From the NCBI GenBank assembly GCA_900320865.1, contig ONTT01000001.1, forward strand, positions 57,614 to 121,613: a stretch of DNA of 64,000 nucleotides, read 5' to 3'. Every line of letters begins with the position of its first letter. Positions within the stretch are counted from its first letter, which is position 1. Below, one piece after another: positions 16,373 through 21,996 of the stretch. The stretch is from an uncultured Bacteroidales bacterium. Lineage in GTDB: Bacteria > Bacteroidota > Bacteroidia > Bacteroidales > Paludibacteraceae. A model generated the notes under the pieces. That model was not told where the DNA came from. It saw nothing but the letters and a program-made list of their open reading frames with translations, and ran no database searches. Both the position numbers and the translations under genes were made by a program.

Positions 16373-19300
16373 CTAGAACGGATACCCAATTCCGAAGTTC
16401 ACGCGCACAGCATCGAGCGCCGAGGGAATATTAAAGTACGAGTTGATCGGCTGTGTCTTATCCGGCGTCCAGTCTTTCTTGTTGTAGCGATAGGTCTGAT
16501 ACGGCGCATGGATTGCTACGCCGATATCGAGTCGAATCACCAAGCCATCCAAGTCCAATCGCAAACCCGCACCAGTTCCTAACGCAATCTGCTTCGCCAG
16601 ATACGGATTATCCAGAATTCCATCGTATAGATCCTCGCGCAACTGCAAGGCCTCCTTGTAATCCGTAATACCTTCCTCCTCGTATGCCTTCACCGTGCTG
16701 TACCAGTTCCATACGTTGCCTGCATCTACAAACGCCGCGCCGAATAGTTTCCAAACGATCGGGAAACGGAACTCAAAGTTACCCTCTAATTTCACATCGC
16801 CCGCATGGAAGAAATTCTGGTTGTATTTCTCGCTGTAGAAGTTACCGGGACCGTAGGCATAAGGCGAAGCTGCACGCATGTTATTGGGTCCACCGGCATA
16901 GAACGCTTCTGATAGCGGCGCGAAATCCGAGTTACCCATTGGGATGTTCGAGCCCGCATACAAGCGCGTAGCGATGCATATCTTATCCGTAAAGTTGAAT
17001 TTATTGCGCAACTCCAGATGTACTTTCACATACTGGTTAAACGTCGTCGAACCCAGTGGTTTCTTCTTATCGTTCCATTTATAGCCGAAGAGGCAGTAGA
17101 TACCGTTCAGGATATTACCAGATTCCTTCACACCTGCCTCGAACATTGTGTTCACAGCGCGTTTCGAGCGGTAGTCGTTGTACATGAAGGTATAGCCGAT
17201 GGATGGCGATAACTCATTGCTCGCCAGAATCTTAATCAACTGCGGGTATTCGGCGGCTTTGTTCGACAGACTGTCCGTCTCCGCATTCACGCGCACAAGC
17301 GCCAAAGAGAAAGGCGTGAAGGCATGTGTGATGAACTGCGACGACTTGATGAAATAGGTCATCGACCCGGTCACTTTATGAATGCCATAGCCACCTGCAA
17401 TGTTCTCGTATTGATAGCTCAGCAGGTATCGCGTGTCGCCTTCCGGATTGTTCTTACCGGTCCAATGCAGGTATGGGAACACGAGCGTGGACGTCACACC
17501 GAATTTGTACGTATCGGTCTTCTTCGGGTCACCAGGATGTCTGCCGCGCAGCGCCCAGTAATACGCACCATTACCCTTGATTGTGAAGGTCTCTCCGTTG
17601 CCTAACAGGTTACGGATGTTTGAGGTCAAGGTCAAGTTCGGACCCAAACTGTTATTCGATCGCCACGCCACATCGGCATCTGCAATCAAGCCGTACGTTC
17701 GGTTGATGCTGTCCTTCTCCAGTTTTGCGCGTAACTTATCGCTCTTGATGGCCTCGCGTTTCTTCCAGTCCTTCTTCGCGCGAACGCCGATACCCGACTT
17801 ATACAACTCGCCTTCGAAGATGTTGTTGTAGTCGCGTTGTGCGAAGGCACGAAGCAACACATCGCCCGCTTTGGTTAACTTATACTCGGCTGTCAGGTTA
17901 TTGAAGAAGCCGCTCGCCTGGTTAATCTCCGGGTTATCGGTCAGCGTCGAACCCACGGTCACGCGCAATCGGTCTTTGAAGAACGATTTACTGATGGCTA
18001 TATTCAGGTCATTCGTGTTACCGCCTGCATGCTCGGTCTGCGCGCTACTCAGGTCGATATCAACCACCTTGCCTAATTTCGAATTGGCCATCGCTGCGTT
18101 CACGCGGCTGTTCACAATCGATGATAAGGCATAGCCGCTTCGTTGTGCCGCTACGTTGCTCTCGCCTATGTACATTCCGGTCGCCAACAGCGTCGCTGCC
18201 AAGCCTTCCCGCGTGTCCTCGTCTAACGATGCTAACTCGCGCGTTATCTCTTCGTCTTCCGGGGCTTCCAGGAAGAAATCGATACTGTTCAAACCGATCG
18301 AGTCCACTTCGCCTTTAACCCGCACACCTGTTCTGAACTCCACGCGTCGGGTTTCTTCGTCTTCGGACTCTACGTCCGCTTTCACTTTCTGTGAGGCGGA
18401 GACATTCAACATCGTCTTCCCTACCGGACCGTGGAACGACACATGACTGCCCGAATCCACATGGAACGGCATAATAGGGTACGCTTTCGGCGAATAGCGT
18501 ACGAAGCCTTCATCCACGTTCACCCGGCCTCCAAGACTCAAGTCACCATTGCCCGTACGGTATTTCACGTTCACCTTACCGTGCGGCTTCACTTGCGCTA
18601 AGTTCTTCTTATCGATCGGGTAGGTGATATCGGTTGTCGGCAGGATATGTACCCCCACATCTGCCACGATATCATCCAGTTGACCGGTCACTTTTCCGTC
18701 TATATCCAGCGCCAGATCGCCATATACAGGAAGAGTTCCGCCTTGCTCTAACTTCATCGGCGCAAAGCTGTCCGCCTTCAGCGCAATATCCAAACCCATT
18801 GTATTCAGGTCCAGTCCGCCCGTCAACGCCAGATACGTACTATCCGCTCCGTAGATTGGCAGACCGTTAAAGTCTACATGATTATGCTGCATCACGATGG
18901 GCGTCTCACCCAATCCGATCTGTACGCTATACGGTTTGTACAACGCCGAGACTTGCAGCGGCAACACTTCGGCCGAGAGGTCCATCTGAGCGGGCAAACC
19001 GTCCACACTCGCTTGAGCACGAATAGCGCCTTTCAGCTCCAAGTCTGCCATTCCGATGATGCTGTCCGCTATCTCCAGCGGGATGTCATCCAATTGCACA
19101 TTGGCGCGCAAACCGTTCTTATAGTTCTCCGAACGAGCGATATCCATCTTCATTTCCCGACTGCCGAAATACATGTCGCTGAAGTGTAAGTCATCCATCT
19201 TCAGCAATCCTTCGCCATGCAGATCATTTGCCTCACGTGCAAGACCGATTTGCAAGTCCACGTCGGTCTTCAGACCATGCAGCATCATCGCTCCGTCGGT

Positions 19301-21208
19301 TAACTTCGTCTTGGCGGCCAGACCAACCTCCGTAGTGCCATCGGCCATCTTCAGTCGCATACCTGCTTTGGCGGCCGGTAAACGCATAGCCGTGCTGTCC
19401 TCCGGATGTTCTATCTTTGGTATCGCTGCATCCAGCGCCAACAGCGTGCTGTCCGTGTCGGAATGTAACGATAAATCTACATTCTTAATGTCCAGACCTG
19501 TCTGATCAATCAAATGCTGGGCCGGACTGCCGTGTCGTAACGCAATCTTTGCGTCCATCGCCGGAATAGCGCTTCGTAAGGTATCCAATATTGTCATGTC
19601 TGCTAACAAACGATTCACTAATGAGTCCTGACCGGTCACTTTCGTCACCGCTGTACCCATCTGCCCCAATTCATCCACGAACTGCATCACGTGCATCGGG
19701 GTATTCAGATCGATATCCAAACCGTCCGTGTTCACGTTCAGTCCGGTAGTCTCATCGGTCGTAAAATGCAGGTTCAGATGACTCGCTTGGAAGGTCTCTC
19801 CGCCGGTTTGTACACGCACGTCGCGCATCTGAGTCGAGTAATCGACAGCCATCTGATTCGGCTTCAGAAAATCCTTCACCTTAAACTGATGTTCCGTCTG
19901 TGCCTGTACGGCCAAGTCGCCTTCTTTCATCTTCAGCGGCAGATGCAGCGTACCGTCTACGGTCTTGTTTGCTAAGGTCGCATCGAGGCGCATACCGGAA
20001 ACCTGAATACCGTTGTATATCGCGTCGCTCAGGTTCACTTTTATCTTACTCCGCATCGCGCTCGAGTTGATGTCGATACCCTTGCCGCTCGCCTCAATCG
20101 TTCCGGCCACTATGACCTTCGTGCTGTCTTTGAGAAAGGGCGAGAGATCCACCCGTTCGATCTGCACATGGGCATCATATGCCTCGTCGTCGATGTCGTA
20201 ATGCGCCCGTAGCTTCGCCTTACTGCCTTTGAAATCCGCATCGCCCTCCACGTCCACTTGCATCGTCTCGAGGTTCATTTCCGTGGCTGCTAAGTCTGCT
20301 CGCGCGCCCATCTCGTCCGTGCGTACATGAAGGCCGTTGCTTGTGATCAACTGGTTATTCAGATCGACCCGCGCATCGCCATAGAGGGTATCTATCGGCA
20401 TGGAAAAACCACCAATCGCAAACTGCGTCTTACCGATGTCTATCCTCCGGGCGTCGTATAGGTTCGCACTTACGTCGGCCAGTACGTTCACATCCAATGA
20501 AGTGGTCAAATCCAGACCTATAGGCGTTAATCGAAATCGTATATTCCGTAACTGTCCGTCGGGCACATCAAAGGCCATCAACGTAGGTGTCGTGTCCCGT
20601 TCCGTCGTATCGGGAGGCATCTCGCGTAAGTCAATGCCAACGTACGTATCGTTTAACCGCAGACCGTGTAGCGGGAACTTCCCTTCCGAAATCACGATGC
20701 CGGGACTCGTCACGTTCAGTTCGCCTACTATCACATCAATTCCAACCGACGCAATCATCGTATCCGAATGGAATGTCGTTCCCTCAATCCCCAATTCCTC
20801 TACAACTATTGGCATTGCCAATAACTCTCGACTCTCGCCTTTTGATTCTCCACTCTTTGCAATCGCTTTCAGCCTCAATCGCTTCACGCAAGCAAGCGTG
20901 TCTTCGCCTTTATGTCCGACGAATAAGCTGTCGATGCGTACCTCAATCGGCAAATCGGCTTTTCCTTTCCAAGCGCGTAGCAGTTTTCCGGGTGAGTGAT
21001 GGAAGGGCGAGAGATAGATATCGCCAATCTCAATCTCCAAATCCATCTTCTCCTCGGCCACGCTCACACCTTTGGCTACCGCTTTCTTGCGTATTCCCGG
21101 CACATATAGCACACTTGCCACTACGATCAGTAGCAGCAACACCAGTCCCAGCAGTCCTCCAACCACTCCCACCGGTATCTTCCAATATAGTGCCTTCTTA
21201 TCCGCCAT
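16373..21208 (-). CDS. tamB: TamB-Omp85 fusion protein
   Basis: A single 1611-residue frame. Residues 10-32 are one hydrophobic anchor. From about 40 to 1060 it is a long repetitive beta-rich AsmA/TamB-type region, a periplasmic groove that in known TamB proteins carries lipids or OM proteins. The TamB (DUF490) signature region is about 880-1130: VDEGFVRYSP, then the helical REGLAATLLATGMYIG, then DIDLSSAQTE and FFKDRLRVTVGS. After a Lys/Glu-rich linker (about 1140-1163) come about 445 residues of Omp85/TamL barrel: the L6 motif AGGPNNMRAAS (Arg1445), FVDAGNVW at about 1493-1500, and the terminus GIGYPF with final Phe. No POTRA domain is visible. It starts on the TAATG of the upstream barrel gene. 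A degenerate 7-bp repeat is at 20824-20858. Confidence 0.85.
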   Translation of the reverse strand: MADKKALYWKIPVGVVGGLLGLVLLLLIVVASVLYVPGIRKKAVAKGVSVAEEKMDLEIEIGDIYLSPFHHSPGKLLRAWKGKADLPIEVRIDSLFVGHKGEDTLACVKRLRLKAIAKSGESKGESRELLAMPIVVEELGIEGTTFHSDTMIASVGIDVIVGELNVTSPGIVISEGKFPLHGLRLNDTYVGIDLREMPPDTTERDTTPTLMAFDVPDGQLRNIRFRLTPIGLDLTTSLDVNVLADVSANLYDARRIDIGKTQFAIGGFSMPIDTLYGDARVDLNNQLITSNGLHVRTDEMGARADLAATEMNLETMQVDVEGDADFKGSKAKLRAHYDIDDEAYDAHVQIERVDLSPFLKDSTKVIVAGTIEASGKGIDINSSAMRSKIKVNLSDAIYNGIQVSGMRLDATLANKTVDGTLHLPLKMKEGDLAVQAQTEHQFKVKDFLKPNQMAVDYSTQMRDVRVQTGGETFQASHLNLHFTTDETTGLNVNTDGLDIDLNTPMHVMQFVDELGQMGTAVTKVTGQDSLVNRLLADMTILDTLRSAIPAMDAKIALRHGSPAQHLIDQTGLDIKNVDLSLHSDTDSTLLALDAAIPKIEHPEDSTAMRLPAAKAGMRLKMADGTTEVGLAAKTKLTDGAMMLHGLKTDVDLQIGLAREANDLHGEGLLKMDDLHFSDMYFGSREMKMDIARSENYKNGLRANVQLDDIPLEIADSIIGMADLELKGAIRAQASVDGLPAQMDLSAEVLPLQVSALYKPYSVQIGLGETPIVMQHNHVDFNGLPIYGADSTYLALTGGLDLNTMGLDIALKADSFAPMKLEQGGTLPVYGDLALDIDGKVTGQLDDIVADVGVHILPTTDITYPIDKKNLAQVKPHGKVNVKYRTGNGDLSLGGRVNVDEGFVRYSPKAYPIMPFHVDSGSHVSFHGPVGKTMLNVSASQKVKADVESEDEETRRVEFRTGVRVKGEVDSIGLNSIDFFLEAPEDEEITRELASLDEDTREGLAATLLATGMYIGESNVAAQRSGYALSSIVNSRVNAAMANSKLGKVVDIDLSSAQTEHAGGNTNDLNIAISKSFFKDRLRVTVGSTLTDNPEINQASGFFNNLTAEYKLTKAGDVLLRAFAQRDYNNIFEGELYKSGIGVRAKKDWKKREAIKSDKLRAKLEKDSINRTYGLIADADVAWRSNNSLGPNLTLTSNIRNLLGNGETFTIKGNGAYYWALRGRHPGDPKKTDTYKFGVTSTLVFPYLHWTGKNNPEGDTRYLLSYQYENIAGGYGIHKVTGSMTYFIKSSQFITHAFTPFSLALVRVNAETDSLSNKAAEYPQLIKILASNELSPSIGYTFMYNDYRSKRAVNTMFEAGVKESGNILNGIYCLFGYKWNDKKKPLGSTTFNQYVKVHLELRNKFNFTDKICIATRLYAGSNIPMGNSDFAPLSEAFYAGGPNNMRAASPYAYGPGNFYSEKYNQNFFHAGDVKLEGNFEFRFPIVWKLFGAAFVDAGNVWNWYSTVKAYEEEGITDYKEALQLREDLYDGILDNPYLAKQIALGTGAGLRLDLDGLVIRLDIGVAIHAPYQTYRYNKKDWTPDKTQPINSYFNIPSALDAVRVNFGIGYPF
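20824..20858. repeat. Heptamer repeat within the tamB fusion, 5 units
   Basis: Units ACTCTCG, ACTCTCG, CCTTTTG, ATTCTCC, ACTCTTT. The encoded segment AKSGESKGESREL is near residue 120 of the protein. The ACTCTCG unit is the same as at 21883-21938. Confidence 0.55.
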
Positions 21209-21996
21209 TAAAAACTCTTCTGCACGCCGAACTTAAGTCCGTAAAGACCCGGTGTAAAGTGATTCGCTATCAGGTTGCGTAATTTTCCCGAGAAGATAAT
21301 CACGTCGTTCGTATACTCTCTGTATCGATTTCCCGTATCAGGATCCTGATAGAAGAACGTCGTTCCGCTGTAACCCGCCGATAGAATTGAGAAGAAAACC
21401 TGGAACGTACTCTTCTTATTGAACTGATATGTGATCACAGGCGAAACTTGGAATCCGTAGGTCGCACTATGCCGCAAGCCGTTGTAATCAGTGCCTTTGA
21501 TGTCTCCGTCCGTCACGCGCGGAAACTCCATACCTGCGTACAGGTGCGTCTCTATCCAAATACCTAATTTCCCGTTGAACACGGTCTTCAAACGATAACG
21601 CATATAGGGCGTCACATTCCAACTGCCTTGCCGAACGCGAATATTTTCCGATATCGTCTTTCCGTCGCTCTCGTAACTATAAGTCGTAAACAAATCCTGA
21701 TAACTTCCGCCAACACGCAGACCGAGATAGATACGCTCTTTCAAACGCCAACCGATCTCCGGTTCCAGGGCAATGGACCAACCGTTCTCTTTCTTGTTCG
21801 TACGCGTGTCATGGTGAAAATAGATATCGAAGTTATAGCCATAGTACAACTTCTTCTTCCATTCCGGCACTTCCAATTTAATACTATCCACTCTCGTCTC
21901 TCCACTCTCCACTCTCGACTCTTGACTCTCGACTACCTGTGCCCACGCACTCACGGCACATACCATGGCCGCTATAATAAAGATTGTTCGTTTCAT
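21208..21996 (-). CDS. Outer-membrane beta-barrel protein, unknown
   Basis: A 262-residue protein with signal peptide MKRTIFIIAAMVCAVSAWAQ, then a short repetitive acidic segment (about residues 20-35, encoded by heptamers), then alternating strands rich in Tyr/Phe and Gly (LYYGYNFDIYFHHDT, MRYRLKTVF). The C-terminus GLYGLKFGVQKSF ends in Phe, as needed for BAM recognition. ATG 21996 starts the signal peptide; a TTG 12 bp upstream is less likely. Its stop overlaps the start of the TamB fusion by one base (TAATG), so the two are probably translated together. Function unknown. Confidence 0.8.
   Translation of the reverse strand: MKRTIFIIAAMVCAVSAWAQVVESQESRVESGETRVDSIKLEVPEWKKKLYYGYNFDIYFHHDTRTNKKENGWSIALEPEIGWRLKERIYLGLRVGGSYQDLFTTYSYESDGKTISENIRVRQGSWNVTPYMRYRLKTVFNGKLGIWIETHLYAGMEFPRVTDGDIKGTDYNGLRHSATYGFQVSPVITYQFNKKSTFQVFFSILSAGYSGTTFFYQDPDTGNRYREYTNDVIIFSGKLRNLIANHFTPGLYGLKFGVQKSF
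21883..21938. repeat. Heptamer repeat within the OM barrel gene, 8 units
   Basis: Eight tandem 7-bp units (ACTATCC, ACTCTCG, TCTCTCC, ACTCTCC, ACTCTCG, ACTCTTG, ACTCTCG, ACTACCT). The longest run of this family in the window. It codes for the Glu/Ser/Arg-rich segment just after the signal peptide. Confidence 0.65.

Follow-up and report, generated by a model that had tools for sequence, protein, structure and literature searches.

The closest described relatives of the protein analysed here are pairs of separate proteins. Passages of PMC12045153 describe, in F. johnsoniae, a TamL and a TamB that are separate and essential, together with an accessory TamB2-TamL2 pair (Fjoh_1899-Fjoh_1900) whose genes overlap and which can be deleted. 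The accessory pair was found in 20 of 30 Bacteroidota species, and its function is called unknown by its authors. Both halves of the TamB2-TamL2 operon are homologous to the fused protein described below and stand in the same gene order; the overlap between the two genes in F. johnsoniae is also seen in three of the six split pairs that we examined. The operon, however, encodes two proteins, a TamB2 whose groove is about 400 aa longer and a TamL2 that is a lipoprotein with POTRAs, whereas the fused protein is one chain with neither a lipid signal nor a POTRA. The canonical Bacteroidota TamL and TamB belong to the same superfamilies but are encoded by separate genes in the same genome, and the fused barrels fall outside the TamL group.

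Similar to the fused protein, the E. coli TamAB complex, as described in passages of PMC12800296, has a TamB groove whose end meets strand 1 of an Omp85 barrel. There, TamA and TamB are separate proteins and three POTRAs contact TamB, whereas in the fused protein the joint is covalent and POTRAs are absent. POTRA-less barrels have been described as ‘noNterm’ Omp85 proteins (Heinz and Lithgow 2014, PMC4104836, in the passages on this class), which are without an N-terminal extension; the N-terminus of the fused protein, in contrast, is TamB. Passages of the same paper also offer a precedent for a barrel with a partner-like domain, an Omp85 protein with a WD40 domain likened to a BamA-BamB fusion, although the partner differs. 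We found no description of a one-chain TamB-Omp85 fusion in the open-access PMC literature. As a separate observation, the genome from which our sequence comes also encodes, on another contig (C45, L052, 4217-5728), a 504-aa Omp85 protein with a signal-like start and a front too short for TamL-like POTRAs, which resembles the ‘noNterm’ class.

Within the window, which is the whole 64,000-nucleotide stretch of DNA analysed, positions 16373-21208 of the minus strand form one open frame of 1611 codons with an ATG start and zero internal stops, as given by the ORF list and the translation. A sequence-only reading had described this frame as an uninterrupted join of TamB and an Omp85 barrel, which is borne out. 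The parts follow one another in the order membrane anchor, TamB-type groove, TamB C-terminal domain, connector and Omp85 barrel, and relatives have the same architecture. Together, the comparisons detailed below show that TamB2 and TamL2, the accessory TAM pair of Bacteroidota, are fused in the product of a single gene. Elsewhere TamB2 and TamL2 are encoded by two neighbouring genes, and TamL and TamB are separate in the same genome.

The TamB half begins with a hydrophobic signal-anchor at residues about 12-34 (21107..21175, minus strand; residue limits set by eye), which is also present in those relatives whose start was kept and agrees with the membrane anchor noticed earlier. An HMM built from TamB2 matches this end of the protein at residues 15-67 (E 1.3e-6), and the anchor would by its sequence sit in the inner membrane. 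The groove follows at residues 35-866 (18611..21106, minus strand), delimited by hhalign to TamB2 and TamB, the aligned ranges and the HMM segments, and the TamB C-terminal domain at residues 867-1149 (17762..18610, minus strand). This domain is matched by the TamB2 HMM at 867-1149 (E 4.2e-44) and by the TamB HMM at 876-1157 (E 1.6e-24), and has two helices and six strands when counted by eye and compared with passages of PMC12800296, where the C-terminal domain of E. coli TamB has six strands and two helices. It does not lie at the very C-terminus, since an Omp85 barrel of about 440 residues comes after it.

TamB homology spans residues about 14-1147 when the protein is aligned by hhalign with profiles built for this analysis, with 100% probability and E 3.9e-48 against six split TamB2 proteins and 99.6% probability and E 3.2e-24 against ten canonical TamB proteins. 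Pfam PF04357 (TamB/DUF490) has no match in the 1611-aa protein even at E 10, and the TamB assignment therefore rests on those profiles; the same family matches two of eight fused proteins scanned (best E 1.3e-17). The TamB-like groove proposed by the sequence-only reading stands as TamB homology, whereas the DUF490 signature that it placed at about residues 880-1130 is not recovered by Pfam. Residues 19-1146 of the fused protein align to 22-1572 of the split TamB2 L042, so that the fused groove is some 400 residues shorter than that of a split TamB2. We note that groove length also varies within the genus: in five relatives (L025-L028 and L030, from G030, G026, G003, G015 and G018) the match breaks near window-protein residues 400-473, and about 70 groove residues are missing.

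The two halves are joined by a connector of 23 residues (1149-1171; 17696..17764, minus strand), lying between the Trp that closes the final TamB strand and the Tyr with which barrel strand 1 begins. A Lys/Glu-rich linker at about 1140-1163 had been proposed; a connector of 23 residues is indeed present here, but such a linker is not a general feature. Among 50 relatives (57 rows minus seven second copies), the connector has 14 residues in 38, 16 in four, 11 in three, 21 in two, 23 in one and only three in two, these last cases, KNK in L017 and KKK in L186, being few and both from draft genomes. Because three residues leave room for little more than a hairpin turn, we infer that strand 1 of the barrel neighbours the last strand of TamB. 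An AlphaFold model of residues 835-1611 from six alignment rows gave no usable fold of the joint (mean pLDDT 31.3).

The barrel occupies residues 1172-1611 (16376..17695, minus strand). Pfam Omp85 (PF01103) matches residues 1368-1609 with E 2.9e-16, and the NCBIfam model lipo_TamL (NF052279) scores 308.8 bits (E 8.7e-92), short of its cut-off of 400 bits. Profile searches of the PDB with a fused and TamL2 barrel profile match BamA and TamA chains (E 9.9e-10 to 5.7e-5). The last 446 residues, modelled from seven rows, form 16 main strands (mean pLDDT 58.5, pTM 0.59), and in the best 50 of 104 Foldseek rows at E <= 0.001 this model finds entries for TamA, BamA/BAM and mitochondrial SAM (query TM-scores 0.32-0.45). 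The idea that these C-terminal residues, about 445 in number, might fail as an Omp85 barrel thus finds no backing, at the modest confidence of the model. The elements that had led to the proposal of a complete barrel are in place, namely the loop-6 motif AGGPNNMRAAS at residues 1438-1448 (16865..16897, minus strand), FVDAGNVW at 1493-1500 (16709..16732, minus strand) and a final Phe. In the window protein, Omp85 is found by Pfam, and TamB by hhalign profiles but not by PF04357.

In TamL2 proteins, a further part precedes the barrel. Counted from the preceding stop codon, it measures 340-432 residues in 20 TamL2 proteins and has no counterpart in the fused proteins. Two HMMs, one built from what precedes the barrel in TamL2 and one from the same part of TamL, match none of 28 fused rows (including two near-copies) at E <= 1e-3. 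At this threshold they match 34 of 34 controls, 20 and 14 of which had served to train the respective models. When the threshold is relaxed to E 10, the TamL2 model matches seven of the 28 fused rows and the TamL model 24, with a best E of 0.21. Where a model of the whole TamL2 (777 positions) is matched to fused proteins, the match starts at model position 360-365 in five of six printed cases and at 322 in L017. A POTRA hidden between the halves was considered and rejected: the lipo_TamL match does begin at residue 1054, yet the POTRA-only models find none at E <= 1e-3. Nor was a POTRA recognised by eye in a neighbouring gene among the ORFs of the 64-kb window.

The lipoprotein signal is likewise missing. 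The signal anchor at the N-terminus of the fused protein contains no Cys. In 29 of 31 fused proteins, the window protein included, Cys is also missing from the 110 residues ahead of the NNSxGP motif, so that a second lipobox is lacking too. Both earlier statements, that neither a POTRA domain nor a second signal lies between the parts, are upheld by these searches. They show a TamL2 half that has neither its lipoprotein signal nor its POTRA domains, joined to a TamB2 half that keeps its anchor and C-terminal domain on a shorter groove.

Both halves point to the accessory pair as the source. A barrel tree built from 74 rows unites the 30 fused rows in one clade (support 100/100), which stands apart from the TamL group (57/98). 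TamL2 rows do not form one clade in this tree (3 changes). Their label was given by match strength, and in 13 of the 23 rows L061-L083 TamB2 is also matched on the same contig; the TamL label of L090 is unsure. Copies and fragments (L002, L003, L007, L031-L038, L040, L047 and L056) were left out. The exact sister of the fused clade is unsure, because its stem is long (1.85) and the nearest row, L077, was flagged as a possible long-branch artefact. For the TamB half, the best relative is the split TamB2 L042 (E 7.2e-40), the genome's own TamB reaching 1.4e-9; by phmmer, the six split TamB2 proteins range from 7.2e-40 to 6.9e-11 and the canonical TamB proteins from 4.7e-13 to 3.3e-8, so that the ranges overlap.

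The six split pairs inspected all have tamB2 followed by tamL2. The two genes overlap in three pairs and are separated by 3-9 nt in two and by some 220 nt in L046; the split-pair row L047 is cut by contig ends. Each of the six TamL2 proteins starts, by eye, with a lipoprotein-like signal ending in Cys. The genome that carries the fusion retains the canonical proteins elsewhere: a search for a separate TamL gene, which had been advised, turned up a TamL lipoprotein (L050) and, at E 6e-45, a canonical TamB (L005/L049), both on other contigs, and canonical TamL keeps a lipobox-like start and POTRAs. This canonical TamB (a 1550-aa frame) ends otherwise than the fused protein, so the possibility that TamB proteins of the group routinely end in a barrel does not hold for the canonical TamB of this genome. 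On these homologies, the fused gene is derived from the second, accessory pair TamB2-TamL2, not from the TamB/TamL pair. We file the fused protein as neither TamL nor TamB because the defining features fail, namely POTRA, lipoprotein signal and separate chain for TamL, and a C-terminal DUF490 for TamB. We class it instead as a fused descendant of TamB2-TamL2, with a probable TAM-like mode of action.

Judged by a match to residues 862-1611 at E <= 1e-80, 96 of 151 genomes of the genus carry the fusion; when only the 61 with a completeness of 90% or more and a contamination of 5% or less are counted, 40 do. In 95 of the 151, the matched stretch spans both the TamB C-terminal domain and the barrel within a single frame, a few of these frames being cut by contig ends; the match in G647 starts at residue 1132, at the end of a contig, and covers the barrel and the end of the TamB part. 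Within a set of 37 genus genomes that includes our own, the fusion is present in 25 (in G024 as two contig pieces) and absent in 12. At the level of the order, 5 of 295 sampled genomes have it: two of the genus, our own included, two of family f101 and one of f2. In the same sample, TamB2-like and TamL2-like matches in separate frames of one contig occur in 19 of 295 genomes (E <= 1e-30). Our own genome is the sole match among the 296 of a phylum sample, with none in the 295 others at E <= 1e-25; these searches detect relatives of the present fusion, and an unrelated TamB-Omp85 fusion could be missed. A search of genome contigs returned five loci, four from an uncultured Bacteroidales bacterium and one from Bacteroidales bacterium UBA4353, and a search of viral contigs returned one relative, on a single contig.

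The matches therefore show that the fusion is patchily present and absent in one Bacteroidales genus and occurs in two other families, which also answers the earlier call to look for the same gene in related genomes. In the barrel tree, the f2 and f101 rows (L104-L106) are nested within the genus, and their fused genes stand in other gene surroundings; position and surroundings together suggest horizontal transfer of the fused gene alone. Two further observations concern individual drafts. G714, G715 and G721 each match the fused gene twice (in G714 one match is partial) and likewise match the small gene described next twice, and mixed strains are possible in these drafts. One copy (G717:C112:4752-6986) carries an in-frame TGA and is possibly decaying.

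Just upstream of the fused gene, on the same strand, lies a gene for a small outer-membrane protein of 262 aa (21208..21996, minus strand). By eye the protein has a signal peptide, and its conserved C-terminus ends in Phe. The TAA stop of the small gene and the ATG of the fused gene share 1 nt (TAATG). For the small protein, no Pfam family exceeds its cut-off (best E 0.036). The small gene is inherited with the fusion: it is found in 23 of the 25 fusion carriers and in none of the 12 other genomes in the set of 37, and among the 151 genus genomes both are present in 89 and neither in 49, leaving 13 discordant genomes (fusion only in seven, small gene only in six). Fisher's test on the 151 genomes gives p 3e-25, uncorrected for kinship. 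Kinship enters with a TamL tree of 32 of the 37 genomes, those with a TamL match (the TamL of G025 is a fragment). On this tree the fusion needs eight gains or losses, six of which well-supported branches make unavoidable. The small gene changes in the same way in 5.6 of six independent pairs (median p 0.031).

In 67 of the 89 genomes with both genes, the small gene lies upstream of the fused gene on the same strand at neighbour distance; in six it is otherwise placed on the contig and in 16 on a different contig, at least one of these (G024) being a contig break. This adjacency in 67 of 89 means that one deletion can remove both genes, which explains part of the co-occurrence. In G007 and G021, other genes occupy the stretch upstream of the fused gene. 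The fusion genomes of f2 and f101 have no close copy of the small gene (none in G254, 28% identity in G137 and 27% in G322), and a distant relative (28%) occurs in G077, which has no fusion match. By its genomic association, the small protein is the best candidate for a client or partner of the fused protein.

How might such a protein work? According to passages of PMC12800296, E. coli TamAB has two states, one of them a hybrid barrel in which the last strand of TamB pairs with strand 1 of TamA, and POTRAs 1-3 contact TamB. The crosslinks TamA267-TamB1258 and TamA269-TamB1256, reported in the same passages, have equal index sums; in our reading the pairing is therefore antiparallel and places the C-terminus of TamB beside the start of TamA strand 1. 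The fusion joins the very two ends that, on this reading, adjoin in E. coli TamAB.

Taken as a whole, the explanation that we consider best, and on balance probable, is a one-chain TamB2-TamL2 envelope bridge with a permanent, hybrid-barrel-like joint and, more tentatively, the small outer-membrane protein as its main client. The fused chain would stay in one piece and span from the inner to the outer membrane, the last TamB strand running through a hairpin turn into barrel strand 1. The barrel would thus be permanently in, or next to, the hybrid-barrel state of E. coli TamAB, and the covalent joint would replace POTRA docking in holding the halves together. Hydrophobic cargo could then be delivered by the groove to a lateral gate that is always supplied. 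With less weight, we propose that the main client would be the co-inherited small protein, making the fused protein a near-dedicated insertase, and that the separate TamL and TamB of the same genome would do the general envelope work. The strictest form of this proposal, a POTRA-free one-chain TAM locked as a hybrid barrel, with the last TamB strand hairpinned to strand 1, acting as a client-dedicated two-membrane insertase, is put forward tentatively and is the more doubtful version. Deletion of POTRAs 1 and 2 of E. coli TamA leads to death or severe growth deficits (PMC12800296, in the passages on these deletions), and so the loss of POTRAs could equally mean a changed function.

In a rival reading the protein would be a bridge for lipid, its barrel serving mainly as outer-membrane anchor and exit for a groove carrying phospholipid or another lipid, protein insertion having been lost. 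The aromatic residue two places past the loop-6 Arg is missing in 29 of 30 readable fused proteins, and the disappearance of the POTRAs would fit the same idea. The barrel nevertheless ranks among the better conserved parts of the protein (L008-L031, L038 and L039 are 55-79% identical to the window protein there), the loop-6 Arg and the terminal GYPF are invariant in the 32 rows of alignment A2, and an outer-membrane protein gene is co-inherited with the fusion, so we regard this reading as unlikely.

Less likely again is a polyprotein from which a periplasmic protease, cutting the basic connector, would release an ordinary TamB2 and a POTRA-less barrel. The connector could indeed be cleaved: it is Lys/Arg-rich and variable, with 27-60% identity where aligned and lengths of 3-23, and it lies between strongly conserved flanks. 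The KNK and KKK connectors of two species, however, leave a protease little target, no POTRA was found that could rebind TamB, and the missing Cys in 29 of 31 proteins argues against a second lipobox on a released barrel. Finally, an assembly artefact or a chance in-frame join of two genes, conceivable in a draft of 65 contigs and once placed at a frameshift or junction near 17700-17800, is of negligible probability and ruled out by relatives, as the same junction is shared by genomes across the genus and of two further families, and the TamL2 head is missing rather than merely joined.

In sum, the interpretation of a permanently joined groove and outer-membrane barrel given by the sequence-only reading is supported, and its one-protein bridge from the inner to the outer membrane is a proposed arrangement that would apply to an uncleaved chain. 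To this the present analysis adds the descent from TamB2-TamL2, the shortened groove and the co-inherited outer-membrane protein.

These results touch on whether the TamB-Omp85 partnership is a stable bridge or a transient complex, and on the role of the POTRAs. A natural fusion kept across many species indicates that a permanent joint is compatible with function, and suggests that POTRAs are perhaps dispensable once the joint is covalent. The fusion further shows which ends of the TamB and barrel halves meet, and offers a one-chain target for structural study. For the accessory TamB2-TamL2 system, the small outer-membrane protein provides a concrete candidate client.
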